From contig NC_015436.1 of the NCBI RefSeq assembly GCF_000208385.1, positions 62,001-126,000 on the forward strand: a stretch of 64,000 nt of DNA, given 5' to 3'. Positions 27,440 to 50,264 of this stretch are shown in pieces. Both the position numbers and the translations under genes were made by a program. Below the pieces are notes generated by a model. The model was not told the DNA's origin, did no database searches, and saw only the letters and a program-made list of their open reading frames with translations. The stretch's first letter is position 1; the number at the start of each line of letters is the position of its first letter. This DNA is from Parasphaerochaeta coccoides DSM 17374. Its GTDB lineage: Bacteria; Spirochaetota; Spirochaetia; Sphaerochaetales; Sphaerochaetaceae.

Positions 27440-28462
27440 TCAGGTGCCGTCTTGTGCGTTACCATTCAGAGTCGAGGTTGATTCCCGGATTATCAGCTGG
27501 GACGGCATGGCGATATTGACGTTGAGATGATTCTCACTTGTGATGAGGGAATGAATCATCGCGACAGATGTCTGAGCCATTTCGCCGAGAGGCTGGCGGA
27601 TGGTCGTGAGACGCGGAATGGTGAATGAAGAAATCTCTATGTCATCAAAGCCTACGATGGATACATCTTGCGGGACGGAAATGCCATGATCCTTCAATTC
27701 CCGCATTGCGCCGATAGCCAGCTCATCTGTCACCGCAAAGACAGCAGTGAACGGCGTATTGCGCTTCATAAGCTCCCGCATTCCTTCTCCTCCGGAGAGG
27801 ACACTGTAGGAATCAACATATACGACAAGGTTTTCATCATACTTCAATCCTGCGTATTCCAGGGCATTCCTGTACCCTCGTTTTCGTTCAAGGCTGAAAG
27901 AGTATCTCTTTCCACAGATCAGGGAGATGCGCCTGTGACCCAGCTGGATGAGATGATTGACTGCGGCATGAGCCGCTTCTTCTTCGCTGACATGTATGCT
28001 CGTCGAGGTCCATTCATCTTTCTCGAAGGTTGTGATTACACAGGGAATCTTGTTGCTTTCAAGATATTCGTAAAAAGCGTGGAGCTGGATTTCCTGGAGC
28101 ATGATGATTCCGTCCGTCCTTTCGGACTTGACCCTCTGAAAACAGTCATCTTCTCCATCAGGCCCCATCGCGACAAAATAGAAGACAGTGCGATATCCGA
28201 ATTTCTGGAGATGATGCTCTATATTGGAGAAAAGTTGTCGTTGGAATATGTTGAAGGTATCAGGAATTATCAGGGCGACGGTGAATGTTCGTTTCATCAC
28301 CATGTCACGGGCGGCCTTGTTCGGCACGTACCCGGTAGATTTTATTGCTTGAAGCACCCGCGCCTGTTTTTCAAGGTTCACGCCCTTTTTGTTGTTGATA
28401 ATCCTGGATACGGTGGAAACAGACACGTCAGCAATTCTTGCGATATCCTTGATACTTACCAT
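27440..28462 (-). CDS. LacI-family regulator, probably of the inositol island
   Basis: A 340-residue repressor. The N-terminal helix-turn-helix and hinge are classic (V-S-I-K-D-I-A-R-I-A-D-V-S-V-S-T-V-S-R-I-I-N-N). The ligand-binding domain follows with G-Y-V-P-N and the late G-F-D-D-I-E segment. The ATG at 28462 follows CGGAGGAAACCCGCCG. It lies downstream of and on the same strand as the sugar importer genes, but a terminator (28731-28756) separates them. Two operators with LacI-type symmetry (33460-33473 and 33687-33700) in the divergent control region are its probable targets. Confidence 0.92.
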   Translation of the reverse strand: MVSIKDIARIADVSVSTVSRIINNKKGVNLEKQARVLQAIKSTGYVPNKAARDMVMKRTFTVALIIPDTFNIFQRQLFSNIEHHLQKFGYRTVFYFVAMGPDGEDDCFQRVKSERTDGIIMLQEIQLHAFYEYLESNKIPCVITTFEKDEWTSTSIHVSEEEAAHAAVNHLIQLGHRRISLICGKRYSFSLERKRGYRNALEYAGLKYDENLVVYVDSYSVLSGGEGMRELMKRNTPFTAVFAVTDELAIGAMRELKDHGISVPQDVSIVGFDDIEISSFTIPRLTTIRQPLGEMAQTSVAMIHSLITSENHLNVNIAMPSQLIIRESTSTLNGNAQDGT

Positions 28463-28766: not shown

Positions 28767-29720
28767 CTACTTGAGGTTGTCCAGGGCTGCCTGGGCGGTT
28801 TCCTTGACAATGACATCGACACCGCTATCAATGCGTTTTTCAACCGTACCGCCGTTCGCCAGGGTAATCGCGATTTCAACTCCAAGATATCCCATGGCTT
28901 CCGGCTTCTGGGCGACGCTGGCGAAAAGGCCATCGGCAAGAATGGACTCCAAAGCCTCTTTGTTTCCATCAGTACCCATGACAGCAGCTTTCACCCCTGC
29001 CTGCTGGAGCGCGCGCAAGGCTCCCAACGCCATTTCATCATTGGAAGCGAATACTATGTTGACGCTTCCGTGAGTCTGTAGCAGATTCTGCATGACCGTG
29101 TATGCTCTTTCACGGTCACTATATCCTGGCTGCCGTGCAAGGACGGTGATTCCCGCGGCCTGGAAAGCAGCTTGCGCTCCATCTGCCCTCTGGGTGGTCG
29201 TCGGATTTCCGGGAGCCCCTTCAATGATGATGGCTTTCGCGCCTGGACCGACCGCTTTTATCAAAGCTTCAGCACCGAGCTTTCCGGCTGCATAGTTCTC
29301 CGTACCGATGAATGTCGCATAATTCGCATATCCATCAGGCATGGGCGTATCAACAAGGACGACAGGAATACCTTTCGCCTTTGCGGAATCCATGACATTG
29401 ACTGCTGTCGGTGGCTGGCTTGGTGAGAAGACCAATGCGGCAGGGTTCTGTGCCAGGGCATCCTGTACCATGTTGATCTGCTGCTCGATGGCATCTTCCG
29501 TCGGAGGGCCGAGCTTGATGAGCTCCACTCCGTAGTGTGCCGCGGCCTCGTCCGCGCCGGAAACGACACGTTGCCAGTATTCACTGCTCAGAGTCTTCAG
29601 GACAACGGCAATCTTCATCTTCCCGCTATCCTTGGCGGATTCCTGCGTTCCACGGGAAAACAGGGTTGCGGGAACCATCAGAAGCGCGATGATCAGGAAC
29701 AATAAACCAATTTTCTTCAT
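28767..29720 (-). CDS. Sugar/polyol-binding protein, RbsB type
   Basis: A 317-residue periplasmic binding protein of the ribose/inositol (Peripla_BP_4) family. The ATG at 29720 follows AAGGAGGATCGAT. The signal peptide ends near L-F-S-R-G, and the mature part begins G-T-Q-E-S. Family segments include V-D-T-P-M near residue 125 and F-A-S-N-D-E-M-A-L-G-A. It is the last gene of an ATPase-dehydrogenase-permease-binding protein operon. Myo-inositol or a related inositol is the probable ligand because the divergent operon encodes inositol catabolism. Confidence 0.92.
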   Translation of the reverse strand: MKKIGLLFLIIALLMVPATLFSRGTQESAKDSGKMKIAVVLKTLSSEYWQRVVSGADEAAAHYGVELIKLGPPTEDAIEQQINMVQDALAQNPAALVFSPSQPPTAVNVMDSAKAKGIPVVLVDTPMPDGYANYATFIGTENYAAGKLGAEALIKAVGPGAKAIIIEGAPGNPTTTQRADGAQAAFQAAGITVLARQPGYSDRERAYTVMQNLLQTHGSVNIVFASNDEMALGALRALQQAGVKAAVMGTDGNKEALESILADGLFASVAQKPEAMGYLGVEIAITLANGGTVEKRIDSGVDVIVKETAQAALDNLK

Positions 29721-29791
29721 ATCGATCCTCCTTGATATGGATGGGATGTTATTTCCCACTTTCTTTGCGAAAACCCTCTTTGCTTCGTGTC

Positions 29792-30781
29792 CTACTTTGC
29801 GACAGCCGATACACGCTGCCGCAGGACATCAATGTACACAGCCAGAATGATGACGACACCTATGGTGACAGTCTGGAATGCGGAATCGACATTAAGCAGA
29901 TTCAATCCATTGCGCAGAACGGCAATGATCAGGACACCGATGATAGTATTGCCGATTTTCCCGGTTCCTCCGGAGAAACTTGCTCCGCCTATGATGACGG
30001 CTGCGATTGCATCAGACTCATAATCCTGTCCCGCCAAAGGGTACGCCGCATTGACACGTCCGACCAGGACTATGCCGGCGAGGGCAGCGGTGAAACCACT
30101 GAGCGCATATACGATGCATTTGACCTTTGATACGTTGATGCCGCTCAACCGGCTGGCTTCCGTGTTTCCTCCGATTGCGTAAATATGTCGTCCCGTTGCT
30201 GTATGGGTCAGGAAAAAGAACATGCCTATATACAGGACGATGACAAGGACGATGCTTGCGGGAATCGGGCCAAAGTAATGGCTGCCCATGAACTGAACCG
30301 CCATGGGGAAACCGCTGATAGGCATGGCTGCGGTAATCGCCAACGCAATTCCCCGGCCTATCATCTTTGTACCTGTAGTGGAAATGAACGGGTGGGGCAG
30401 CTTGAGCTTTGTCAGGAGCAGACCATTGATAAGCCCGAACAAGGTTCCTATCAACAGGCAGAGAAGCATGCCGAGAAAAGGATCCATGCCGAGCCTTACG
30501 ACAAAAACTCCCATGGCCATGATGGACATGGCAAGGATAGAACCGATGGACAAGTCTATGCCTCCCGTAAGGATTGCAAGGAACTCGCCAACGGAAATCA
30601 CGGCGCTTACGGTAGCCTGTGCCAGTACATTCCGCAGATTGTCCAAAGACAGGAATCGCGGTGAAAGTATGGCAATCACTATGCTCAGCACAATCAGGCT
30701 GAACACGATGCCATATCCTTTCATGAATAATGAAAACCCATTCCTTTTTCTTGCATCCTGCTTCTCTGCTGTCGGATTCAT
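29792..30781 (-). CDS. Sugar/polyol ABC transporter permease, RbsC type
   Basis: A 329-residue inner-membrane permease. The ATG follows GAGGGAGGAAAAAGA. The family segments G-G-I-D-L-S-I-G-S-I-L-A and N-T-E-A-S-R-L-S-G-I are present, as is the late G-G-A-S-F-S-G-G-T-G-K. About ten hydrophobic segments are visible. It works with the ATPase at 31868-33370 and the binding protein next to it. Confidence 0.93.
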   Translation of the reverse strand: MNPTAEKQDARKRNGFSLFMKGYGIVFSLIVLSIVIAILSPRFLSLDNLRNVLAQATVSAVISVGEFLAILTGGIDLSIGSILAMSIMAMGVFVVRLGMDPFLGMLLCLLIGTLFGLINGLLLTKLKLPHPFISTTGTKMIGRGIALAITAAMPISGFPMAVQFMGSHYFGPIPASIVLVIVLYIGMFFFLTHTATGRHIYAIGGNTEASRLSGINVSKVKCIVYALSGFTAALAGIVLVGRVNAAYPLAGQDYESDAIAAVIIGGASFSGGTGKIGNTIIGVLIIAVLRNGLNLLNVDSAFQTVTIGVVIILAVYIDVLRQRVSAVAK

Positions 30782-30829: not shown

Positions 30830-31828
30830 TCAGACAGGAACCGGTTTGCCCTGTCTCAGGGATGCGTTGGCCGCAATGCCGAGCTTAAGGGCTGCTATGC
30901 CATCGTCAATGCCGACGCATGGAGCGTTTCCCGCCTGGACATCGTGGATGAAGCGGCGCAGTTCTTCGAGATATGCCTGTCCGAACCTGCCCAGAAAACC
31001 ATCCACTGTGTTTTTATGTATTCCGGAGGCATCCATGACTTCCATGGGAGAATCCTGGAGGTTCCCAATGAAGGCTGCCCCTTCCGAACACACTACCTCG
31101 GTACGCACGTCATAGCCGTACCGTGAGTTTCTGCTTCCTTCCAGAGAGCCGAGAACCCCGTTTGCAAAAGTAATTTCAATGTTCACATGGTCTATGTCGC
31201 CGACCGCTTCAAGTTCTTTGTACCGGACGATGCCGCCCCGTGCGTATATTTCAACGGCTTCGGAACCCGTGAACCATCTGCACAAATCGAAGTCATGGAC
31301 GCACAGGTCAAGGATAAGTCCCCCGCTTGACTTGGCGAACTCTATCGGAGGGCAGGAAGGGTCCCGGCTTATTCCCAGCAGGGAAACAGGGGTTCCGATG
31401 TCTCCGGATTCAATTTTCTTTTTCGCTGCCGCATATCCAGCGTCAAACCGTCTCATGAAGCCCAGTTGCACGAAAGCATGCTTTTTTGCAGCCAGTTCCT
31501 GGACGGCAAGAGCCTCATCAAGATTCAATGAAAGAGGTTTTTCACAGAAAACGGCCTTGCCTGCATTGATGGCATCAGTAATCATGGCGGCATGCATGGT
31601 TGTTGAAGAAGCAATGACGACAGCATCGATATCCTTGCTATTCAGAACATCATGATAGTCCGTAAACCCCGCTACTGAAGGATAGCTGGCCGTGAACAAT
31701 TCCAATGCCTTGGAAGACACATCCGAGACAGCGGTCAGTTCCGCGCCAGGAATGCTGCCGGCAAGGTTTGCCGCATGGCGGAAGCCGAGCCGCCCCAGTC
31801 CTATGACACCACAACGAATTCTTTTCAT
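30830..31828 (-). CDS. Gfo/Idh/MocA-family dehydrogenase (inositol dehydrogenase-like)
   Basis: A 332-residue NAD(P)-dependent oxidoreductase. The Rossmann motif is G-V-I-G-L-G-R-L-G near the start, the proton-relay lysine is in F-C-E-K-P, and the catalytic D-x-x-x-H is in L-D-L-C-V-H-D-F-D-L. The ATG at 31828 has AGGAGC seven bases upstream. The gene sits between the ATPase and permease genes of the importer, so it should act on the imported compound. Because iolG is encoded across the divergent promoter, this one may handle a stereoisomer such as scyllo-inositol; this is inference. Confidence 0.88.
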   Translation of the reverse strand: MKRIRCGVIGLGRLGFRHAANLAGSIPGAELTAVSDVSSKALELFTASYPSVAGFTDYHDVLNSKDIDAVVIASSTTMHAAMITDAINAGKAVFCEKPLSLNLDEALAVQELAAKKHAFVQLGFMRRFDAGYAAAKKKIESGDIGTPVSLLGISRDPSCPPIEFAKSSGGLILDLCVHDFDLCRWFTGSEAVEIYARGGIVRYKELEAVGDIDHVNIEITFANGVLGSLEGSRNSRYGYDVRTEVVCSEGAAFIGNLQDSPMEVMDASGIHKNTVDGFLGRFGQAYLEELRRFIHDVQAGNAPCVGIDDGIAALKLGIAANASLRQGKPVPV

Positions 31829-31867
31829 CACTTTGCTCCTGTTTGTAAAGCCCATATAGTGGACTCG

Positions 31868-33370
31868 TTATGTACTACTGATGCCGGATGCGGCATACAT
31901 GATTTTCCCTTGGTCAAATTCTTCTCTTTGCAGCTCTCCGGTGATCCGTCCTTCATGCATGACAATGATCCTGTCCGCCATGCCCATGCATTCATCCATC
32001 TCAGAACTTATCATGATGACGGCGGCGCCATTTTCCAGAAGGCTGTTGATGAGGTTGTACACTTCTATTTTCGCGCCGACATCGATACCGCGTGTCGGTT
32101 CATCAAAAATGAAAATCTTCGCTTGGGTCATGACCCATTTCGCAAGGACTACTTTCTGTTGATTTCCGCCACTCAATTGACCGGCGAGCGTTGATGTGTC
32201 CGGAGCTTTTATCCTCAGTTCCTTGGCAATCTTCCCGGCGTGATTCTTCATCCCGAACAAATCAAGGAAAAACTTGTTTTTCTTGAAGTTCTTCAGATGC
32301 ACCAAGGTTGAATTGAATTCTATGGACTGAATAAGTATCAATCCCTGCTGTTTCCTGTCCTCGGTGAGAAAAGCTATTCCAGCTTTGATTGAGTCCGCCG
32401 GAGAATTGATTCTTACTTTTTCCCCGAAGACAGTGACCTCTCCGCTGTCTGATGGATCGGTACCGGTCAGCCCCCTTACCATCTCGGTACGTCCGGCTCC
32501 GACCAACCCGGAAAAGGCAAGTATCTCGCCCGTGTTCACGGAGAAGGAAATGTCTTCAAATACTCCTTTCCGCGTCAGTCCCTTGACTTCAAGGGCAGTC
32601 TCTCCAATGGCAATTTCTTTCTTGGGATATTTGTGCGTGATATCACGTCCGACCATCAGGTGGATGATGTTGTCCACCGTTACATCGGAGATTCTATTGT
32701 TGGCGACGACACATCCGTCCCGCATGACAGTAAGTGAATCACAGATATTTTTTACTTCCTCCAGCCTGTGGGATATATAAATGACAGTGACCTGCTTTTC
32801 TTTCAGTGCCTTGATAATCCTGAAAAGCTCCCCGGCGTCTTTCTCACTAAGGCTGGCGGTTGGTTCATCCATGATGATCAGTTTTGCTTCGGCATGGACG
32901 GCTCTGCATATTTCTATCATCTGGCACTGGCCTACGCCCAGCAAACCGAGCGGCGTTGTGGAATCAATGTCCAGTTCAAATTCCTTGAGGATTTCCGTCG
33001 CTCTCCTGTTTGCTTCGGCCCTGTCAAGGAACAGTCTGTTTTTCTTCAATTCACGTCCCAGGAATATGTTTTCCGTCACTGTCATATGGGGGACTTGGTT
33101 AAGTTCCTGGTAGATGCAGGCAATGCCGAGATCCATAGCCTGATGGGGTGTAAGGGAGGGGAAGACCTGTCCATCAAAATAAATCTCTCCTGAATCCGGG
33201 GAATGCGCTCCCGCGAGGACTTTTATCAACGTCGATTTTCCCGCGCCATTCTCACCGACAAGTCCGTGTACTTCCCCTTGACGGACATGCATGCTTACAG
33301 AATCAAGAGCCAGAACCCCGGTAAACCGTTTCGTGATGTTTCTCAACTCCAACAGATTCTTGTCTTCCAT
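31868..33370 (-). CDS. Sugar/polyol ABC transporter ATPase, RbsA type (two-domain)
   Basis: A 500-residue ATPase. Domain 1 has G-E-N-G-A-G-K-S-T near residue 38, the short signature L-L-G-V-G-Q-C-Q-M-I-E-I and Walker B L-I-I-M-D-E-P-T-A-S-L-S. Domain 2 has G-L-V-G-A-G-R-T-E, L-S-G-G-N-Q-Q-K-V-V-L-A-K-W and F-D-E-P-T-R-G-I-D-V-G-A. I chose the ATG at 33370, eight bases after GGAG; a GTG at 33376 is too close. It is the first gene of the minus-strand operon controlled from the divergent region. Confidence 0.94.
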   Translation of the reverse strand: MEDKNLLELRNITKRFTGVLALDSVSMHVRQGEVHGLVGENGAGKSTLIKVLAGAHSPDSGEIYFDGQVFPSLTPHQAMDLGIACIYQELNQVPHMTVTENIFLGRELKKNRLFLDRAEANRRATEILKEFELDIDSTTPLGLLGVGQCQMIEICRAVHAEAKLIIMDEPTASLSEKDAGELFRIIKALKEKQVTVIYISHRLEEVKNICDSLTVMRDGCVVANNRISDVTVDNIIHLMVGRDITHKYPKKEIAIGETALEVKGLTRKGVFEDISFSVNTGEILAFSGLVGAGRTEMVRGLTGTDPSDSGEVTVFGEKVRINSPADSIKAGIAFLTEDRKQQGLILIQSIEFNSTLVHLKNFKKNKFFLDLFGMKNHAGKIAKELRIKAPDTSTLAGQLSGGNQQKVVLAKWVMTQAKIFIFDEPTRGIDVGAKIEVYNLINSLLENGAAVIMISSEMDECMGMADRIIVMHEGRITGELQREEFDQGKIMYAASGISST

Positions 33371-33459
33371 TGACACGCTCCTTTTTTACCAGGGCAGGGG
33401 ATTGCTACAGGGATTAATCCAATGATGAAGCACAAATGGCTCTTTTTGGATGTCCATGT

Positions 33460-33507
33460 TGAAAACGTTACCAACAAAACAATCTCATCGATTTCGGCAT
33501 TTGTCAA
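33460..33507 (-). promoter_or_regulatory. Promoter and LacI-type operator of the importer operon
   Basis: On the minus strand a consensus -35 TTGACA (33507-33502) is followed after 17 bases by a weak -10 GATTGT (33484-33479). Just downstream is the operator TGGTAACGTTTTCA (33473-33460), which matches the plus-strand operator at 33687 in 12 of 14 positions. Confidence 0.65.
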
Positions 33508-33649: not shown

Positions 33650-33700
33650 TTTACAAATTTTTTTATGGATGTATACTTGAAAAGTCTGGTAACGTTACCA
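33650..33700 (+). promoter_or_regulatory. Promoter and LacI-type operator of the iol operon
   Basis: A -35 TTTACA (33650-33655), 16-base spacer and -10 TATACT (33672-33677) are followed at the expected transcription start by the perfect 14-bp palindrome TGGTAACGTTACCA (33687-33700). A bound repressor here would block RNA polymerase. Confidence 0.75.
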
Positions 33701-33754: not shown

Positions 33755-34795
33755 ATGGAAAAGAAGATGGCTATCGGAATCATTGGCGCCGGTCGCATCG
33801 GCAAACTACATGCGGAAAATATTTCCCGTCTGGTACCCGGTGTCGTGATTGCTGGAATTTCCGATGTACACATGACGGAAGATATACGTTCATGGGCGCA
33901 AGGACTGGGCATCCTCAGGATAACGGCGAATCCGCAAGACATCATCACTGATTCTGAAATTCAGGCAATCATCATCTGTAGCTCGACGGAGACGCATGCC
34001 GACATGATCATTGCCGCGGCGAAAGCTGGCAAACATGTTTTCTGCGAAAAACCCATCGACCTTTCCGTCCAGAAAGGTCTTTTGGCCGTGGAGACTGCAC
34101 GAAAGAACAACGTGAGGCTTCAGCTTGGCTTCAACCGCCGGTTCGATCATAACTTCCGGAAAATACGGGAGCTGAGCAAGGCAGGCACGGTCGGGGACAT
34201 CCACATAGTGAAGATTACATCACGTGATCCCGCGCCGCCTTCCCCTGCTTATGTCGCCTCATCAGGGGGTATTTTCCTGGACATGATGATTCATGATTTT
34301 GATATGGCCAGGTTCCAGGCGGGCAGTGACATCACCGAGGTACATGCCATTGGCTCCGTGCTCGTAGATCCGGAGATAGGGAAAGCCGGGGACATTGATA
34401 CTGCCATAGTTACCTTGAAATTTGCCAATGGAGCCATTGGTGTCATTGATAATTCCCGTCAGGCTGTCTATGGGTACGACCAACGGGTTGAAGTCTTTGG
34501 TTCAAAAGGTTCCGCCGAAGCGTTCAATGATACGGAGACAACAGTGAAACTTTCCACTGCCGAAGGGGTTGCGGGAGACAAGCCGCTGTATTTTTTCCTT
34601 GAACGGTACAAGGGTGCGTTTGTCAGTGAAATCAATTCCTTCATTGAGGCAATTGGCGGCAAGCATGATGTGGAAGTCACGGGTGAAGATGGTCTTGAGG
34701 ACATGATTGCGGCTTTGGCGGCAGGGAAGTCGTTGAAGGAAGGCCGTCCGGTGACAATCAGGGAAATGAAAAAAGAATTGGGAGTGCGGCAATGA
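33755..34795 (+). CDS. iolG: Inositol 2-dehydrogenase (Gfo/Idh/MocA family)
   Basis: A 346-residue NAD-dependent dehydrogenase, first enzyme of myo-inositol catabolism (to scyllo-inosose). It shows the Rossmann motif G-I-I-G-A-G-R-I-G-K-L-H, the F-C-E-K-P segment, G-F-N-R-R-F-D and the catalytic region F-L-D-M-M-I-H-D-F-D-M-A-R-F, all close to known IolG proteins. It is the first gene of the plus-strand operon and overlaps the next gene by four bases. Other Gfo/Idh/MocA proteins share these motifs, but the iolB, iolD and iolE genes that follow support the assignment. Confidence 0.9.
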   Translation: MEKKMAIGIIGAGRIGKLHAENISRLVPGVVIAGISDVHMTEDIRSWAQGLGILRITANPQDIITDSEIQAIIICSSTETHADMIIAAAKAGKHVFCEKPIDLSVQKGLLAVETARKNNVRLQLGFNRRFDHNFRKIRELSKAGTVGDIHIVKITSRDPAPPSPAYVASSGGIFLDMMIHDFDMARFQAGSDITEVHAIGSVLVDPEIGKAGDIDTAIVTLKFANGAIGVIDNSRQAVYGYDQRVEVFGSKGSAEAFNDTETTVKLSTAEGVAGDKPLYFFLERYKGAFVSEINSFIEAIGGKHDVEVTGEDGLEDMIAALAAGKSLKEGRPVTIREMKKELGVRQ

Positions 34796-35604
34796 CAACG
34801 CAGATGCGGCATAGCGGTCCTTATGTCCATGGATACACGGATCTGGTTCCAGGGACGGGTCCTACTTCCGATATGTTCATGAGCTTCGGAGTCCTTTCCC
34901 TCAAGGAAGGAGATACATGGACTGATACAGGACGGGTCTCAGGAGAAGAACGCGTCTGGCTCCTGGCTCAGGGGAACGCAAAGATTTCCTGGGGAAAGGA
35001 ACGACTGTCCATCTCCCGCCCTGACTTGTTCGACCATGAACCATGGGTGTTGTCCGTTCCCTCGGCTGTGGATGTTTCCATCGTTGCCGGCAAGGGGGGA
35101 GCAGAGTTCTATCGTAGCGCTACGGACAATCCTCTACAGTTTGCGTCCCGTCTCTTTACCCCGGAAGAATGCAGGAGTGAATTTCGTGGTGAAGGGATGA
35201 TGAACGAGACATCGACCCGTATTGTCAGGACTGTTTTTGATGATACCAACAGGCCGGAATCGAATCTTGTCATCGGGGAGGTCATAGGGGTTCCGGGGAA
35301 ATGGTCCAGTTACCCGCCTCACCATCATCCACAGCCGGAAATCTATCACTATCGGTTCCTTCCCGGTCAGGGATTCGGTTTCTGCGCCATCGGAGAAACT
35401 CCCTGTCTTATCAAGGATCGGGATACGATTCTTATTCATGACCATGAAGTTCATCCCCATGTCACGGCTCCGGGATATGCCATGTGGTATATATGGATTA
35501 TCAGACATATCGAAGGGAACCGTTACGCCGTTCAGCATGTTCCACCGCAGTATCAGTGGGTTACAGAGTCCGGCGCGGAAATCTGGGCTCCGAAGAAAAA
35601 GTAA
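34792..35604 (+). CDS. iolB: 5-deoxy-glucuronate isomerase
   Basis: A 270-residue cupin-fold enzyme that isomerises 5-deoxy-glucuronate to 5-keto-2-deoxygluconate in inositol breakdown. The metal-binding segment is clear: S-S-Y-P-P-H-H-H-P-Q-P-E-I-Y-H-Y-R-F, and a later H-D-H-E-V-H-P-H-V. The size matches the family. It overlaps iolG by four bases and precedes iolD by 22 bases. Confidence 0.95.
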   Translation: MTTQMRHSGPYVHGYTDLVPGTGPTSDMFMSFGVLSLKEGDTWTDTGRVSGEERVWLLAQGNAKISWGKERLSISRPDLFDHEPWVLSVPSAVDVSIVAGKGGAEFYRSATDNPLQFASRLFTPEECRSEFRGEGMMNETSTRIVRTVFDDTNRPESNLVIGEVIGVPGKWSSYPPHHHPQPEIYHYRFLPGQGFGFCAIGETPCLIKDRDTILIHDHEVHPHVTAPGYAMWYIWIIRHIEGNRYAVQHVPPQYQWVTESGAEIWAPKKK

Positions 35605-35626: not shown

Positions 35627-37492
35627 ATGGCAAAAATCAGACTGACAATGGCACAGGCTCTTCTCCGTTTTCTTGATAATCAGTATGTAGACTTTGACGG
35701 CCAGACAACAAAGTTTGTCACGGGGGTCTTCGGCATCTTCGGACATGGAAGTGTCGTCGGTCTTGGAGAAGCACTTGCCGCGGAAAGCAACAAACTGCCT
35801 TTTTATCAAGCGAAGAATGAGCAGGGGGCAGTCCATGCCGCCACCGCGTATGCAAAGGAAAACAACAGGCTGAAAATCATGGCCGTCGTGTCTTCAATAG
35901 GGCCGGGGGCTCTTAACATGGTAACTGGCGCGGGTACGGCTACCGCAAACCATCTGCCGGTTCTGCTGCTGCCGGGAGACGTGTTCGCCTGTAGGCAGCC
36001 TGATCCGGTTCTTCAGCAGATTGAGATTCCTTACGACTATACAATTACGGCGAATGATGCCTTCCGTGCCGTAAGCCGCTATTGGGACAGGATAAACCGG
36101 CCGGAACAGGTGATGAGCGCCATGCTCAATGCCATGCGGGTATTGACGGATCCCGCAGAAACCGGGGCTGTCACCATTGCTTTGCCCCAGGATGTACAGG
36201 GCGAGGCATATGATTATCCCCAAGAATTTTTTGAGAAGCGTATCCATCATATCGAGAGACGGATGCCGACCGAAGCACAGATAAAGAGGGCTGCCGATGC
36301 AATTCGGAAATCCCGCAAACCCTTGGTCATCTGCGGTGGGGGCGTAAGGTATTCTTCAGCGGGTGATGTGCTGCGGGAATTTTGTCATAAGTTCCATGTT
36401 CCTTTCGGAGAAACCCAGTCAGGCAAAGGCGTGATTCCCTGGGATGACGCGTATAACCTTTCCGGGATTGGAACGACAGGCAGCCTGGCTGCAAACAGGA
36501 TTGCGGCGGATGCTGACCTTGTCATTGGCATTGGTACCCGGCTCGGAGACTTCACCACCTGCTCGAAGTGGCTGTTCAAGAATCCTGACTGCACGTTCCT
36601 GTCGGTCAATGTCTCTGGTTTCGATGCCTATAAGATGAACAGTGAACCGATTGTCTCCGATGCAAAGGCTTTCTTGGAGGCGTTGCTCCGTGATTCTTCC
36701 CTCGGCGCATATGAAACGGCATGGGGCAAGGAAGTCCCGGATATCAAAGGACAGTGGGACAAGGAAGTCTGCCGGTTATATTCCGAAGAAGTCAGCGGTG
36801 GATTGTCACAGGCGCGGGTCATTGGAGAACTGAATGACAGACTGCTTCCTCATGATGCCGTTGTGATTTCAGGTTCAGGTTCAGTTCCCAGCGACATGCA
36901 GCGTGTATGGCGTACCCGTGTAACGGGGACATATCATGTGGAATACGCTTTCTCATGCATGGGATATGAGATAGCTGCTGCCTTGGGCGCAAAGATTGCG
37001 CATCCTGACAGGGAAGTCGTCGTCATCATTGGTGATGGAGCGTATGCAATGCTTCATTCTGAACTGCTGACGGCTGTCCAGGAGGGCAAGAAGATAATTG
37101 TGTTTGTCCTGGACAATGCTGGTTTCCAGTGCATAGACAATCTCCAGCATAGCCAAGGCATTGTCCACTATGGAAACGAATGGAAAGTGCGGGAGGAGAG
37201 TACGGGACGACTGACCGGAGCATCCCTTGCCGTCGATTATGCGAAGAACGCGGAAAGCTGGGGAGCCGTCGGGCTCCGGGCGGATACAATCCAGGAACTG
37301 GAGGACGCGACTCGCCGGGCGTTGAAGGAAACTCGTCCGACTGTCGTACATGTGCATGTGACGCCGAAGTCAATGACGGGAAACTATGAGGCGTGGTGGA
37401 GAGTCGGTATTGCCGAAGTGTCGGAAAATCCTGATGTCGTGACGGCATGGGAACGGATGCAGGATGAAATCGAGAAGACAAGGAAATTTTGA
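35627..37492 (+). CDS. iolD: 3D-(3,5/4)-trihydroxycyclohexane-1,2-dione hydrolase (ThDP-dependent)
   Basis: A 621-residue thiamine-diphosphate enzyme that opens the inositol-derived ring to 5-deoxy-glucuronate. The N-terminal domain has G-I-F-G-H-G and the catalytic Glu in A-K-N-E-Q-G-A-V-H-A-A. The ThDP-binding motif is G-D-G-A-Y-A-M-L-H-S-E with the Asn of L-D-N-A-G-F downstream. R-Q-P-D-P-V-L-Q-Q-I-E is typical of IolD. The ATG at 35627 has a distant AAAGGATTGGG; a longer frame upstream overlaps iolB and lacks support. It overlaps the frame of iolE only by the region before its start. Confidence 0.96.
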   Translation: MAKIRLTMAQALLRFLDNQYVDFDGQTTKFVTGVFGIFGHGSVVGLGEALAAESNKLPFYQAKNEQGAVHAATAYAKENNRLKIMAVVSSIGPGALNMVTGAGTATANHLPVLLLPGDVFACRQPDPVLQQIEIPYDYTITANDAFRAVSRYWDRINRPEQVMSAMLNAMRVLTDPAETGAVTIALPQDVQGEAYDYPQEFFEKRIHHIERRMPTEAQIKRAADAIRKSRKPLVICGGGVRYSSAGDVLREFCHKFHVPFGETQSGKGVIPWDDAYNLSGIGTTGSLAANRIAADADLVIGIGTRLGDFTTCSKWLFKNPDCTFLSVNVSGFDAYKMNSEPIVSDAKAFLEALLRDSSLGAYETAWGKEVPDIKGQWDKEVCRLYSEEVSGGLSQARVIGELNDRLLPHDAVVISGSGSVPSDMQRVWRTRVTGTYHVEYAFSCMGYEIAAALGAKIAHPDREVVVIIGDGAYAMLHSELLTAVQEGKKIIVFVLDNAGFQCIDNLQHSQGIVHYGNEWKVREESTGRLTGASLAVDYAKNAESWGAVGLRADTIQELEDATRRALKETRPTVVHVHVTPKSMTGNYEAWWRVGIAEVSENPDVVTAWERMQDEIEKTRKF

Positions 37493-37518
37493 AGAATTTT
37501 TGCAGAAGGGGGAAAGAT

Positions 37519-38412
37519 ATGAGTGATGACGCAATCAGATTGGGCATAGCCCCTATTGGATGGACGAATGATGATTTGCCTGAGCTTGGCGGGGAGATAC
37601 CTTTTGAACAATGCGTGAGTGAAATGGCTCTGGCAGGTTTTTCAGGGTGTGAAGTAGGGAACAAGTATCCGAAGGATCCTGCGGTCTTGAAAAAAGCGCT
37701 TGGACTCCGTGGGCTTTCCATCTGTAACGCATGGTTCAGTATGTATCTGACTTCCAGGCCGTATGAAGAAGTCGAGAAAGATTTCCTGGCTCATTGTGAT
37801 TTCCTCCATGCCATGGGAGCAAAGGTGGTGGGGGTGGCCGAGCAAGGGAATTCCATCCAGGGTCGTCAGGATCTTCCTGTGTTTGATAAGAAGCCTTTCT
37901 TTTCCGAAAGCCAATGGAAGCAGGTTTCCGAAGGTCTCAACAGGCTGGGTGAAGCAGCTTTGAAGAAAGATATCCGCCTTACATACCATCATCATATGGG
38001 AACTGGGGTACAGACGACCGAAGAAATCGACAGATTGATGGAATCGACTGATCCGGAGCTTGTCGGATTGTTGTACGACTGCGGACATATTGCCTTCTCC
38101 GGTGAAAATCCCGTGGATTCCTTGAAAAAGTGGCTTCCCCGCATCTGGCATGTACATCTGAAAGATGTCCGCAAGGAACGCAGGGAAAAAGCCATTGCGG
38201 AGAAATGGTCTTTCCTGACATGCGTGAAGAACGGTGTCTTCACTGTCCCCGGAGACGGCAGCATATCCTTTGAACCGATCTTCAAGGAGCTGATCACACG
38301 AGGATACTCCGGATGGTGGGTGGTCGAGGCGGAACAGGATCCGGCCAAGGCCAATCCATTGGAATATGCGCTCAAGGCGCGTTCCTTCATCAGGGATAAG
38401 GCCGGAGTTTAG
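37519..38412 (+). CDS. iolE: Inosose dehydratase
   Basis: A 297-residue TIM-barrel enzyme of the xylose-isomerase-like group that removes water from scyllo-inosose. The start at 37519 follows AAGGGGGAAAGAT. Family marks are G-I-A-P-I-G-W-T-N-D-D near residue 10, the metal-binding segments Y-H-H-H-M-G-T and L-L-Y-D-C-G-H-I, H-V-H-L-K-D-V, and W-W-V-V-E-A-E-Q-D near the end. The four iol enzymes together convert inositol as far as 5-keto-2-deoxygluconate. A short repeat follows before the GAPDH gene. Confidence 0.95.
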   Translation: MSDDAIRLGIAPIGWTNDDLPELGGEIPFEQCVSEMALAGFSGCEVGNKYPKDPAVLKKALGLRGLSICNAWFSMYLTSRPYEEVEKDFLAHCDFLHAMGAKVVGVAEQGNSIQGRQDLPVFDKKPFFSESQWKQVSEGLNRLGEAALKKDIRLTYHHHMGTGVQTTEEIDRLMESTDPELVGLLYDCGHIAFSGENPVDSLKKWLPRIWHVHLKDVRKERREKAIAEKWSFLTCVKNGVFTVPGDGSISFEPIFKELITRGYSGWWVVEAEQDPAKANPLEYALKARSFIRDKAGV

Positions 38413-38457: not shown

Positions 38458-39492
38458 ATGAAAAAAATTAAAGTCGGAGTTGCAGGATATGGCGTGATAG
38501 GGCAACGTCTCGCTGATGGTGTCGCACTCCAGGGAGATATGGAGCTTGTTGGTGTTGCCGATGTAGCCCCTACGCTTAGCGTGAAGGCGTTGAAAGAAAA
38601 GGGGATGCCCTACAAGTTCTTTACGGCTGCTCCTGAAAGACAGGCTGAACTTGAGGCCGCCGGTATTCCTGTCAGCGGCGACCTTGATGATTTGGTCAGA
38701 CAGTCGGACATCATGCTTGACGCGACCAGTGCCGGCGTCGGCGCAAAGAACAAGCTTCTCTACGAGAAGTACGGGAAGAAAGCAATATTCCAGGGCGGAG
38801 AAAAGAACACTGTCGCCGATGTTTTTTTCCATGGATATGCGAATTATGAAAAAGGAGTGGGAGCTGATTTCCTCAAGCTGACATCGTGCAATACGACAGG
38901 GTTGATCAGAGCTGTCGATTGCCTGGACAGGGCGGTCGGCGTGGAGAAAGTCGCCATTACAATCATACGGAGGGTCGCCGATCCTGGTGATTATCATCGG
39001 GGACTGACGAACGCCTTGCAGATTGACAAGGCTCCAAGCCACCAGGCGCTCGACCTCATGACCATCATGCCGCATGTCGAAGCAACAGGAATCCTTGTCC
39101 ATACTCCAGTCACTCATGGTCATATCATCACCGTTGTTCTGACTCCAAAGAAAGACATCAGTGTTGCGGAAGCTCTCATGTATTTTGACGGACATCCTCG
39201 TATCAGGCTTGTCTCGATAGATGAAGGTTTCCAGGGAAACGCCAGTCTGTTCCGCTATGCGCGTGACTTGGGAAATCCACGGGGTGACATGTATGAAATT
39301 GCAATCTGGCGTGATTCGATAGTCAAAAGCGGTCGGGACATCATGTTTGCCATCAACATCCCGCAGGAAGCGGTCGTCATTCCTGAAAACATAGATGCCA
39401 TCCGTGCGTCCATGAAAATGCAGCTTACACGGGACGAGGGAACTGCCGAGACAAACACATATCTGGGGATTGGAAAATGGAAGATTTCGTAA
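38458..39492 (+). CDS. Archaeal-type (type II) glyceraldehyde-3-phosphate dehydrogenase family protein
   Basis: A 344-residue protein of the class found mainly in Archaea, not the usual bacterial GAPDH. The nucleotide-binding motif is G-Y-G-V-I-G-Q-R (residues 10-17) and the catalytic Cys144 is in T-S-C-N-T-T-G-L. R-R-V-A-D-P and the H-V-E-A-T-G-I-L-V-H-T-P-V-T-H-G-H segment are also family features. It oxidises an aldehyde phosphate to an acyl phosphate. Its 3' end overlaps the PGK gene by 16 bases. Position inside an iol operon is unusual, and the true substrate might be triose phosphate from inositol or a different aldehyde. Confidence 0.9.
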   Translation: MKKIKVGVAGYGVIGQRLADGVALQGDMELVGVADVAPTLSVKALKEKGMPYKFFTAAPERQAELEAAGIPVSGDLDDLVRQSDIMLDATSAGVGAKNKLLYEKYGKKAIFQGGEKNTVADVFFHGYANYEKGVGADFLKLTSCNTTGLIRAVDCLDRAVGVEKVAITIIRRVADPGDYHRGLTNALQIDKAPSHQALDLMTIMPHVEATGILVHTPVTHGHIITVVLTPKKDISVAEALMYFDGHPRIRLVSIDEGFQGNASLFRYARDLGNPRGDMYEIAIWRDSIVKSGRDIMFAINIPQEAVVIPENIDAIRASMKMQLTRDEGTAETNTYLGIGKWKIS

Positions 39493-40781
39493 AAATCAAT
39501 ACCTTGGATGATTTTGATTTTTCAGGGCGGACGGTTCTTTTCCGTCCTGACATCAACTCTCCCCTTGACCCCAAGACCAAGCGTATCGCCAACATCAACA
39601 GGCTTGAAAAAGCGGCTCTGACCTTGCGGGAGCTTCTGGAAAAAGGTGCGAAGGTCGCTCTGATAGCCCATCAGGGAGATACCTTGGATTATCAGAATCT
39701 TATACCGCTGGAAGAACATGCCGCCATACTGGAGCGGATGACCGGACATCCTGTTGCGTATAGTGATGATGTCTGCGGTCCCGCGGCGGTTCAGGCTGTC
39801 AAAAAATTGAAAAAAGGAGAGGCTGTCGTCCTGGGGAATCTCAGGTATCTGAGCGAAGAAGTCACGGCTTTTGAGAAGGAAGTCAAACTGGAGCCGAAGG
39901 GAATGTTCGATACATGGCTTGTCCGTTCACTTACCCCGGTCGTGGACTTTTATGTGAATGATGCTTTTGCGGCCGCTCATCGGAACTGTCCTTCCATGGT
40001 AGCGTTCCAGGAATTACTTCCCACGTCTGGTGGACGACAGCTTATAGCGGAATATACGGCGCTTTCCAAAGTCACCGCGCATCCTGCGCATCCCTGTGTC
40101 TTTGTTCTTGGCGGCGGTAAGATTTCTGATGCTTTCGGCATGATGAGGAATGTCCTGGAATCGGGAACCGCGGACAAAATACTGACGGCGGGAATCACAG
40201 GACTTGTCATGGCGCTGGCAGATGGCATAGATCTGGGTCATGCGACGATGAAATTCCTTGAGGACAGGGATCTCATAGGTTTCATTGAAGAAGCCCGCCA
40301 GCTTCTTTCGGCGTGGGGAGATAAATTCATGTATCCGGAAGACCTTGCCTATGAACAGGACGGCAAAAGGCAGGAAACATCAGTATCTTCTCTTTCGCCT
40401 CTTTCGCCGGAACTGAAAGACAAGCTTTTTCCTGATATAGGTCAGAGGACAATTGAGAAATACCAGCGGGAACTCTCCATGAGCGCGACAATCTTTGTCA
40501 ATGGCCCTGCGGGAGTCTATGAGGATGAACGGTGGGCGTTGGGAACTCAGGAAATCTGGCAGGCCATTGCGTCTTCTCCGGGATATACCGTAGTCGGGGG
40601 AGGAGACACGATTAACGCCGCGTCACGTTTCACGGACTTGCAGGATTTCTCCTATGTTTGTACTGCCGGTGGGGCGATGGTCAGATTCCTTGCGGGAAAA
40701 AAGTTGCCGCTTATCGTCGCCATGGAAAAAGCCTACGTTCCTCCTGAAGTCCTTGAAACCGTGAGAAAAACACTGGGATGA
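39477..40781 (+). CDS. pgk: Archaeal-type phosphoglycerate kinase family protein
   Basis: A 434-residue protein closest in pattern to archaeal PGKs: R-P-D-I-N-S-P-L-D (residues 23-31), Y-V-N-D-A-F-A-A-A-H-R (159-169), G-G-G-K-I-S-D-A-F (212-220), V-N-G-P-A-G-V-Y-E and a late G-G-G-D-T nucleotide loop. The substrate-binding segment that normally reads H-x-G-R-P is H-Q-G-D-T here (residues 65-69), so a phosphoglycerate-contacting Arg is missing. With the overlapping GAPDH gene it can make ATP from an acyl phosphate. The altered segment leaves open a substrate other than 3-phosphoglycerate. Confidence 0.85.
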   Translation: MEDFVKINTLDDFDFSGRTVLFRPDINSPLDPKTKRIANINRLEKAALTLRELLEKGAKVALIAHQGDTLDYQNLIPLEEHAAILERMTGHPVAYSDDVCGPAAVQAVKKLKKGEAVVLGNLRYLSEEVTAFEKEVKLEPKGMFDTWLVRSLTPVVDFYVNDAFAAAHRNCPSMVAFQELLPTSGGRQLIAEYTALSKVTAHPAHPCVFVLGGGKISDAFGMMRNVLESGTADKILTAGITGLVMALADGIDLGHATMKFLEDRDLIGFIEEARQLLSAWGDKFMYPEDLAYEQDGKRQETSVSSLSPLSPELKDKLFPDIGQRTIEKYQRELSMSATIFVNGPAGVYEDERWALGTQEIWQAIASSPGYTVVGGGDTINAASRFTDLQDFSYVCTAGGAMVRFLAGKKLPLIVAMEKAYVPPEVLETVRKTLG

Positions 40782-42061
40782 TAGAAGACATGATACACAT
40801 TCAATATGTGAAGAAGGACATTGCGGTCGATATAAAAAAGGAAAATCTCCTGGGGGTGTTTGAGCCTAATGCTGTGGATGAGCCGTCAGATATCTCCGAG
40901 GCCATCCGCAATGCCTTGTTCGCTCCATACGGAGGACCGGACTTCAATGGGTTCCTTGAAGGGGCGAAGACAGTCCTTCTTGTCATCAATGACGCGACAC
41001 GCCCTACGCCGTCAGGAACGATCATCGCGACGCTTCTTCCTCTGCTGGAACGGTATGGCATCACCGAGAAAAGCGGGCTTGGCATACTTATTGCCACCGG
41101 TGCCCATCGGGGAGCCACGGATGAAGAATTCGGGCAGTTGTTCGGTTCTTTGGCCGCACGCCTGAAAAACTGTTGTATATCTCATGATTCCCAGGATGTG
41201 GATGAGCTTGTGAATCTGGGGGTCACGCGCAACGGAACGCCCATCATTTTGAACAAAAGGTTGTTCCTGTTTGACAGAATCATCATTATCGGAAGTGTCG
41301 AGCCACATTATTTCGCCGGTTTCACAGGCGGCCGCAAGGCTTTCCTGCCCGGTGTCGCCGGATATGAGACCATAGTTGCAAACCATAGGCTTGCATTGTC
41401 TGAAAAAGCTCAGTCGCTGGCATTGGAAGGCAATCCTGTACATGAAGATATGATGGATGCCCTGCGCCATATTTCCGCGCCTGTGTTTTCCATCATGTCT
41501 GTTCTTGATAAGGAACAGGGAATTGCGGCTGTCACGGCGGGAGACATCACTGATTCATTCCATGCCGCGGTGGATGTCGCCAAAAAGGTTTTCTGCGTGA
41601 AGATTCCCCGGAAAGCGGACATTGTCATATCTGTTGCCAAATTTCCCATGGACATCAATCTGTATCAGTCCCAGAAAGCGATTGACAATGGAGCGCATGC
41701 GGTAAAAGACGGAGGCATCCTGATTTTGGTATCCGCTTGCAGGGAAGGGATTGGGGGCAAGACTTTTGCTGATCTTCTTGCCCGTTCTTCTTCTCCGGAA
41801 GATGCGTTGGAGAGGATAAGTCGGGAATACAAGCTGGGTTATCACAAGGCTGCAAAGATGGCTGCCATCATGCAGCGGATGACGGTTTTTGCCGTTACGA
41901 ATCTGGATGCCGGGCTTCAGGAAAGTCTTTTTCTGACACCGGTCGGCACTGTCCAGGAAGCAATCACCAAGGCAATCGGGGTCATGCATGACAAAGGCAT
42001 TGATACACCTCAGGTCATTGTTTTTCCTGATGGCTGCGTGACTATCCCTGTGGAAGAATAA
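40778..42061 (+). CDS. Nickel-dependent lactate racemase family protein (LarA homologue)
   Basis: A 427-residue protein of the LarA (DUF2088) family, which uses a nickel-pincer nucleotide to epimerise 2-hydroxyacids by hydride transfer. Catalytic and cofactor residues known for LarA are visible: N-D-A-T-R-P-T-P, A-T-G-A-H-R, S-H-D, V-E-P-H-Y-F-A-G-F-T-G-G-R-K (His and the cofactor-bound Lys) and N-P-V-H. It overlaps the PGK stop by four bases, so the three genes are one unit. LarA homologues act on several 2-hydroxyacids, so the substrate is open. Cofactor synthesis genes (larB, larC, larE) are not in the window. Confidence 0.87.
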   Translation: MIEDMIHIQYVKKDIAVDIKKENLLGVFEPNAVDEPSDISEAIRNALFAPYGGPDFNGFLEGAKTVLLVINDATRPTPSGTIIATLLPLLERYGITEKSGLGILIATGAHRGATDEEFGQLFGSLAARLKNCCISHDSQDVDELVNLGVTRNGTPIILNKRLFLFDRIIIIGSVEPHYFAGFTGGRKAFLPGVAGYETIVANHRLALSEKAQSLALEGNPVHEDMMDALRHISAPVFSIMSVLDKEQGIAAVTAGDITDSFHAAVDVAKKVFCVKIPRKADIVISVAKFPMDINLYQSQKAIDNGAHAVKDGGILILVSACREGIGGKTFADLLARSSSPEDALERISREYKLGYHKAAKMAAIMQRMTVFAVTNLDAGLQESLFLTPVGTVQEAITKAIGVMHDKGIDTPQVIVFPDGCVTIPVEE

Positions 42062-49294: not shown

Positions 49295-49322
49295 GGAATC
49301 GTAAAAGGATAAGGTTTTGGTC

Positions 49323-50264
49323 ATGGGACAAAGGAATGTCATTGGAATTGATGTCGGCGGTACAAAGATTGCCTACGGCTTGTTCGATGAACACGGCATA
49401 TTATTGAATCGTTCGCAATATCCGACCGATATCAAGGCCGACGGACCGTCGTTATGTGATTCTCTCATAGAAACCGTCACGGCATTTGTCAAGGAAAACG
49501 GCCTGAGCTTTAAGCACATTGATGGAATCGGAATCTGTCTTCCTTCATATGTGAAGTTTGATGAAGGCTTCGTGTGTATGACAACGGCAATCATCGGCAT
49601 GCATGATTTCCCCATGCGGGAGTACCTTGAAACCCGTCTGCCGGTTCGCATCGTACTGGATAATGATTCTAACGCCGCTGCATTGGCAGAACATCGGCAC
49701 GGAGCGGGAAAGGGAAGCAGACATATGGTATATGTGGCGACTTCCACAGGCGTAGGCAGCGGCATCATCATTGAAGGCAAACTGTTCCGGGGAAGTTATG
49801 GATGGGCAGGGGAATGTGGACATATGCTGGCTACTCCTGATGAAGGCGTGCTGTGTGGATGTGAGAACAAAGGATGCTTCATGTCATATGTAGGGGGACG
49901 GTTTGCCCCCGATCACGTCAAACTCAACCTTGAAAAAGGCATTCCCAGTACTTTGTCTTCCTGTGACCAGATAGATTGTGAAGCTATTCTCAAGGCATAT
50001 GAAAATGGTGACTGCCTTGCGGGGAAAATGGTTGAATCCATGGCACATTGGTTGGCGGTATGTGTCTACAATGTTTATCAATTACTGAATATAAACCTGT
50101 TCGTGTTCGGAGGCGGCCTCGTTCATTTTGGCAATGCCCTTTTCGGGAGAATGCGCAAAGAATTTAACAGGTTCGACCATCTGGGGTATCCCGTAGAATT
50201 TAAATTTGCTGAATTAGGTAAGGATTGCGGCATCGTGGGTGCTGCTGAATTGGTGAGGGAGTAA
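49323..50264 (+). CDS. ROK-family sugar kinase
   Basis: A 313-residue cytoplasmic kinase. The ATP phosphate motif is I-G-I-D-V-G-G-T-K-I near the start; L-D-N-D-S-N-A-A-A-L-A-E-H-R holds the catalytic Asp region and T-S-T-G-V-G-S-G-I-I follows. The zinc-binding motif reads C-G-C-E-N-K-G-C-F-M-S-Y, with Met where Glu is usual. The ATG at 49323 follows AAGGTTTTGGTC. It is six bases from the glycyl radical enzyme gene, and a DeoR regulator follows, so these three form one operon. It probably phosphorylates a sugar or sugar-like compound before the radical enzyme acts. Confidence 0.9.
   Translation: MGQRNVIGIDVGGTKIAYGLFDEHGILLNRSQYPTDIKADGPSLCDSLIETVTAFVKENGLSFKHIDGIGICLPSYVKFDEGFVCMTTAIIGMHDFPMREYLETRLPVRIVLDNDSNAAALAEHRHGAGKGSRHMVYVATSTGVGSGIIIEGKLFRGSYGWAGECGHMLATPDEGVLCGCENKGCFMSYVGGRFAPDHVKLNLEKGIPSTLSSCDQIDCEAILKAYENGDCLAGKMVESMAHWLAVCVYNVYQLLNINLFVFGGGLVHFGNALFGRMRKEFNRFDHLGYPVEFKFAELGKDCGIVGAAELVRE

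Follow-up and report, generated by a model that had tools for sequence, protein, structure and literature searches.

A candidate inositol pathway through malate semialdehyde at an iol operon of Parasphaerochaeta coccoides

Soil and gut are rich in inositol and phytate, and an iolD gene is generally taken as a sign of the classical inositol pathway, which ends with malonate semialdehyde and acetyl-CoA. Here we describe an iol operon of Parasphaerochaeta coccoides DSM 17374 whose last three genes, gapII, pgkII and larA, encode a type II GAPDH homologue, an archaeal-type PGK homologue and a LarA-type nickel-dependent racemase. The operon lies in a stretch of 64,000 nucleotides (the window), corresponding to positions 62001-126000 of a genome that consists of a single contig of 2,227,296 bases. 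Judged from its gene content and the residues of its proteins, it most probably encodes an inositol pathway with a new lower half running via malate semialdehyde.

RESULTS

Three genes at the end of the iol operon

The open reading frames (ORFs) of gapII, pgkII and larA are all on the plus strand, directly 3′ of iolG-iolB-iolD-iolE, the IolB of which is divergent (Table 1). According to the ORF coordinates they overlap successively by 16 and 4 bases, as had been stated in an initial annotation made from the letters alone. That annotation called the trio 'fused' to the inositol operon, which is wrong as worded, since the genes overlap within one operon and the proteins are separate. The leuS gene following position 42061 runs in the opposite direction, so the operon ends with larA. 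The three family assignments were borne out by profile matches and by the nearest solved chains, which include Pyrococcus PGK (2cun) for PgkII and the malate racemase Mar2 (6d6z) for LarA. The initial annotation had also asked whether the genome has a second, ordinary gap and pgk. These were found side by side at 557 kb, so that the trio is a second set, and the pair being a replacement for the glycolytic enzymes was rejected on this ground. A canonical gap-pgk likewise accompanies the type II pair in 14 of the 15 other genomes complete enough to tell.

Displacement of IolC and the classical lower pathway

In the genome surveys, matches above 715 bits were counted as true iolD, and the curated cut-offs for IolC and IolA were 300 and 448.5 bits, respectively. 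Within the window's order, true iolD occurred in 11 of 81 genomes. GapII was present in all 11, at 0.9 to 14.6 kb from iolD, versus none of 13 iolD-less order-mates (p = 4e-7, a value in which independence is overstated, the genomes being related), and in none of the 11 did IolC or IolA score above its cut-off. The best scores in the P. coccoides genome itself were 107 bits for IolC and 91 bits for IolA. As for IolJ, this genome has one class II aldolase homologue, at 1,071,210 and outside the operon.

In a clostridial order, iolD was found in 32 of 194 genomes. With regard to the DISPLACEMENT of IolC, eight of these 32 had GapII only, 22 had IolC only, one had both and one had neither, an exclusivity with p = 7e-6 (here too the genomes are related and independence is overstated), and GapII was absent from all 44 iolD-less genomes of this order that were tested. 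The genome with both, that of Clostridium ganghwense, has three iolD copies, two adjoining iolC and the third the GAPDH gene. The displacement pattern recurs across two phyla and inside a single genome, and the surveys show that gapII-pgkII takes the place of the lower half of the classical inositol pathway.

The initial annotation had left two readings side by side, namely that the trio speeds the use of inositol-derived triose phosphate, or that it acts on some other aldehyde in a branch not yet described. The former, in which GapII and PgkII would be ordinary glycolytic isoenzymes speeding the oxidation of triose phosphate from the IolC-IolJ route, appears unlikely. The proteins do match curated GAPDH and PGK families and retain the catalytic Cys and His, and triose phosphate is indeed a product of the classical route, but the GapII genomes are without IolC, and mostly without IolA, and therefore no phosphate of 2-deoxy-5-keto-D-gluconate (DKG) is made. 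A canonical gap-pgk is present, the PGK carries Asp in place of Arg65 (see below), and LarA, malic enzyme and transketolase would be left unexplained. The different-aldehyde reading is thus the favoured one, because the set replaces IolC rather than joining it and because the phosphate-binding site of the PGK is altered.

Gene neighbourhoods of gapII-pgkII

A scan of species genomes gave 445 GAPDH relatives, and the best 80 loci were read, 66 of which had a predicted GAPDH gene. This gene is immediately followed by a PgkII-type PGK gene in 60 of the 66 loci, from several phyla, which argues that the arrangement is not due to chance; the initial annotation had named scattering of the genes in relatives as a counter-argument, and they are not scattered. 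The pair recurs in three settings: inositol clusters, loci with malic enzyme and/or LarA genes and without inositol genes, and loci with flavoprotein and ECF genes. Among the 28 inositol clusters besides the window, 22 contain LarA, 19 at least one half of a split transketolase, eight malic enzyme and six PFK. A typical full set is that of Clostridium magnum (L031), with an ABC transporter, malic enzyme, GAPDH, PGK, N- and C-terminal transketolase halves, iolB, iolD, iolE, iolG, LarA and PFK, while in Sphaerochaeta halotolerans (L007) the order is iolG-iolD-iolE, the N and C transketolase halves, GAPDH-PGK-LarA. In one cluster (L056) PFK is followed by class II FBA; class II aldolase-like genes occur in just two of the inositol loci, in one case next to PFK, and no aldehyde dehydrogenase recurs across the clusters. 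Two neighbours of 282 and 323 aa, considered as IolJ and IolC, were rejected as such since their family matches are the transketolase halves, and a 778-aa protein of a relative, considered as a phosphoketolase, shows in Pfam a weak transketolase match only. The P. coccoides genome encodes a single transketolase, also split, at 143,886-145,672, outside the window and 40 kb away, and a malic enzyme near 1,992,000. Six Sphaerochaeta clusters (L006, L007, L196, L200, L201 and L205) have iolG, iolD and iolE without an iolB close by; their iolB may be elsewhere or replaced.

Malic enzyme is also found in gapII-pgkII clusters without inositol genes. Six loci that lack inositol genes (L046, L047, L052, L078, L026 and L035) have GapII-PgkII with malic enzyme and/or LarA, and some of them carry an HpaI-type aldolase, the nearest model of which is 4-hydroxy-2-oxoheptanedioate aldolase, along with an IolB/KduI-like gene, a D-2-hydroxyacid dehydrogenase and an Asp/Glu-racemase-like gene. 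The aldolase could possibly be a second source of malate semialdehyde, releasing it together with pyruvate from a C7 acid. C. magnum holds both module types, with and without inositol genes. In the third setting, mostly that of Christensenellales-like metagenome-assembled genomes (L045, L048, L053, L066 and similar), GapII-PgkII is unlinked from iolD and stands beside an HI0933-like flavoprotein, an FAD-dependent protein and an ECF S component. The idea that the pair serves glycolysis in these genomes was rejected, as a canonical GAPDH was present in five of the six tested and a true iolD elsewhere in all ten tested.

A separate GapII clade and an altered PgkII phosphate site

The 67 bacterial GapII proteins, from all settings, form one clade joined by a long branch, of uncertain length as long branches are, to the four archaeal structures. 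The catalytic Cys (in SCNTTG) and His are retained, and about 25 positions that are invariant in the archaeal GAPDH chains carry another residue conserved across GapII, for example Lys to Asp35, His to Gln196, Thr to Asn261, Ala to Asn300 and His to Pro302. The change to Asp35 lies in the nucleotide region, suggesting that NAD is the cofactor. A literature search on archaeal GAPDH active sites found nothing. No other protein of the operon is as conserved as GapII, which has a median identity of 79% over the inositol loci versus 58% for IolD and 36% for LarA.

Three PGK arginines, 65, 122 and 170 in mammalian numbering, are ligands of the substrate's 3-phosphate (PMC7729029). At the position of Arg65, 55 of 57 PgkII proteins have Asp (Asp68 in the window) and the other two Ser, whereas the references compared have Arg or Lys. 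His62 and the 2-hydroxyl contacts are retained. Loss of Arg65 would fit a substrate in which the C3 group is smaller and less charged than phosphate.

LarA carries a malate racemase signature

All 37 LarA proteins compared, including that of the window, carry the Tyr/Gln/Lys signature of the Mar2 type and the GxHK motif. The clostridial LarAs are about one third identical to the window LarA, and two distinct LarA groups thus appear, from their sequences, to fill the same role. In the P. coccoides genome, the window larA was the only larA found by tblastn. The nickel-pincer cofactor may come from divergent enzymes or from outside.

A proposed route from DKG to pyruvate

The scheme below builds on what was seen in the sequence, namely which genes are present and in what order, their occurrence together with iolD, the displacement of IolC and the residue changes, and its reactions after DKG, with their stereochemistry, were worked out on paper. 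IolG, IolE, IolD and IolB would produce DKG as in the classical upper half, and the DKG would be left unphosphorylated. The two-subunit transketolase would then transfer the C2 ketol unit of DKG to glyceraldehyde-3-phosphate, yielding xylulose-5-phosphate and (R)-malate semialdehyde, the ketol unit thereby joining the pentose phosphate pathway. Using phosphate and NAD, GapII would oxidize (R)-malate semialdehyde to D-malyl-1-phosphate, and PgkII would pass the phosphate of this compound to ADP, giving ATP and D-malate. LarA would turn D-malate into L-malate, which malic enzyme would cleave to pyruvate and CO2 with formation of NAD(P)H. The D form of the malate produced would explain why a malate racemase is needed ahead of an L-malate-specific malic enzyme. 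The PFK and FBA of some clusters might regenerate the glyceraldehyde-3-phosphate acceptor. The initial annotation had envisaged a module that oxidizes an aldehyde to a 2-hydroxyacid with ATP gain and then inverts it, which is consistent with all the findings; the aldehyde that it left unnamed would most likely be (R)-malate semialdehyde made by transketolase.

The configurations, derived by hand, agree with such a scheme. DKG is (3R,4S)-3,4,6-trihydroxy-5-oxohexanoate and, read from the keto end, a D-threo (3S,4R) ketose, the configuration required in transketolase donors. (R)-Malate semialdehyde, or (R)-3-hydroxy-4-oxobutanoate, is an analogue of D-glyceraldehyde-3-phosphate with CH2-COO- for CH2-O-PO3. 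The estimated yield is about 3.7 ATP for each inositol when pyruvate is converted to acetate, versus 3 by the classical route.

Two further explanations were weighed. In one, transketolase cleaves DKG but GapII and PgkII use another aldehyde phosphate, such as erythrose-4-phosphate, LarA acts on the corresponding hydroxyacid and an unrelated enzyme oxidizes malate semialdehyde. The first step of our scheme does come from gene neighbourhood alone, and the specificity of type II GAPDH is not predictable from sequence alone, but the malate signature of LarA, the presence of malic enzyme in the clusters, even in those without inositol genes, the loss of PGK Arg65, which opposes a phosphorylated substrate, and the lack of a recurrent aldehyde dehydrogenase in the clusters make this alternative slightly more doubtful still than the glycolytic one. 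An aldolase splitting unphosphorylated DKG into dihydroxyacetone and malonate semialdehyde, which GapII and PgkII would convert to malonate with ATP gain, would give malonate semialdehyde the other fate needed where IolA is missing, as it is from nearly all these genomes, but is very improbable, as malonate semialdehyde has no 2-hydroxyl and hence gives LarA no role, transketolase is unexplained and aldolase-like genes are as rare in inositol loci as noted above.

Several observations weigh against the malate semialdehyde route itself. The transketolase and malic enzyme genes stand outside the operon both in the window and in the closest relatives, and of 25 genomes in which the pair lies outside an inositol cluster, eight have no recognized iolD, most of the eight belonging to the malic enzyme/LarA type without inositol genes. 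The window LarA scores 412 bits versus a curated malate-racemase cut-off of 500 (NF052593), and a search of the genome with crude motifs gave no match for the cofactor genes LarB, LarC and LarE, no model search having been made. Of the three arginines for the 3-phosphate, PgkII retains two, the GapII changes are defined as alignment positions, and the proposed activities are read from sequence. Taking both sides together, we think that an undescribed inositol pathway, comprising transketolase, GapII and PgkII acting via D-malyl-1-phosphate, a nickel malate racemase and malic enzyme, is probably present across Spirochaetota, Bacillota and Chloroflexota, with malate semialdehyde perhaps being a wider node. 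We found nothing relevant in the open-access literature on an inositol pathway through transketolase and malate or on type II GAPDH in connection with inositol; publication elsewhere is possible.

Transport, regulation and other genes of the window

A minus-strand set comprising a sugar ABC transporter, a second IolG-like gene and a LacI-type regulator diverges from the iol operon (Table 1). The transporter (genes at 28767-30781 and 31868-33376) probably serves inositol uptake, and the regulator (27440-28462), judging from its position and the operator-like palindromes, probably controls the iol locus. The perfect palindrome TGGTAACGTTACCA between the divergent operons is the sole exact copy in the 2.23-Mb genome, which, besides the two intergenic sites, holds only two others with at most two mismatches to the palindrome. 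It is likely that a LacI-type switch governs uptake and breakdown together. Promoter and terminator scans gave signals at chance level. Elsewhere in the window, a gene at 50270-52663 encodes a glycyl radical enzyme of the PFL2-3/dehydratase family (TIGR01774, 906 bits) that fits no named equivalog, and it is adjoined by a ROK-family kinase gene (49317-50264).

Table 1. Features of the iol locus, in window coordinates
Feature	Position	Strand	Evidence
LacI-type regulator	27440..28462	-	Pfam LacI 59 bits, Peripla_BP_3 123 bits
Sugar ABC transporter substrate-binding protein	28767..29723	-	Pfam Peripla_BP_4 206 bits
Sugar ABC transporter permease	29792..30781	-	Pfam BPD_transp_2 136 bits
Second IolG-like dehydrogenase	30830..31855	-	TIGR04380 349.8 bits, slightly below the 355 cut-off
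Sugar ABC transporter double ATPase	31868..33376	-	Pfam ABC_tran 182 bits, two stretches
Operator-like site TGAAAACGTTACCA	33460..33473		Two mismatches to the palindrome
Perfect palindrome TGGTAACGTTACCA, LacI-type operator candidate	33687..33700		Between divergent operons
iolG, inositol 2-dehydrogenase	33755..34795	+	TIGR04380 469 bits, above cut-off
iolB, 5-deoxyglucuronate isomerase, divergent	34792..35604	+	KduI/IolB 167 bits; TIGR04378 89.7 bits, below the 205 cut-off
iolD, trihydroxycyclohexanedione hydrolase	35627..37492	+	TIGR04377 905 bits, above cut-off
iolE, inosose dehydratase	37489..38412	+	TIGR04379 416 bits, above cut-off
gapII, type II GAPDH homologue, proposed phosphorylating (R)-malate semialdehyde dehydrogenase	38458..39492 (344 aa)	+	NF003251 408 bits (cut-off 185), clade-specific residues, iolD co-occurrence
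pgkII, PGK homologue, proposed ATP-forming D-malyl-1-phosphate kinase	39477..40781 (434 aa)	+	Pfam PGK PF00162 326 bits; Arg65 equivalent is Asp68
larA, nickel-dependent 2-hydroxyacid racemase, proposed malate racemase	40778..42061 (427 aa)	+	Lar_N 185 bits, LarA_C; nearest solved chain Mar2; malate signature residues

DISCUSSION

If the proposed pathway is correct, many anaerobes would form malate and xylulose-5-phosphate from inositol instead of the classical products, no ATP would be spent on DKG, and about 0.7 ATP more would be gained per inositol by our estimate. Genes annotated as glycolytic GAPDH and PGK would then be misnamed in many genomes, the GAPDH/PGK pair would gain a non-glycolytic substrate, and the nickel racemase family would gain a clear role. 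Malate semialdehyde might moreover be a wider metabolic node, as the unit of GAPDH, PGK, LarA and malic enzyme occurs without inositol genes, sometimes beside an HpaI-type aldolase.

The Thermotoga inositol pathway, with its diketo-inositol hydrolase, is also an alternative to the classical route, but it branches off before DKG and is not transketolase-based. With the classical pathway (IolG-E-D-B-C-J-A) the operon shares iolG, iolE, iolD and iolB, which encode the conversion of inositol to DKG, IolB being homologous though below its cut-off; it differs in that transketolase, GapII, PgkII, LarA and malic enzyme would stand in for IolC and IolA. The archaeal type II GAPDH and PGK resemble the pair in homology, gene order, style of overlap and catalytic residues, whereas GapII is a separate clade with about 25 changed positions, PgkII has Asp for Arg/Lys65, and a canonical gap-pgk is also in the genome. 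Likewise, the window LarA has the equivalents of Tyr172, Gln293 and Lys351 and the GxHK motif of the nickel malate racemase LarAH6/Mar2 (PMC7583248), and malic enzyme is near the LarA of relatives, whereas its score is below the LarAH6 cut-off and the loop Lys173 is Phe. Finally, SqwGH of sulfoquinovose breakdown is a split transketolase that cuts an unphosphorylated, acid-bearing ketose (PMC9594981). By analogy with this sulfo-TK pathway, the split transketolase of the inositol clusters would also act on an acid ketose and pass the ketol unit to glyceraldehyde-3-phosphate, the differences being the substrate and the fate of the C4 aldehyde, which would here be oxidized with ATP gain, whereas in sulfo-TK it is isomerized and cut again.

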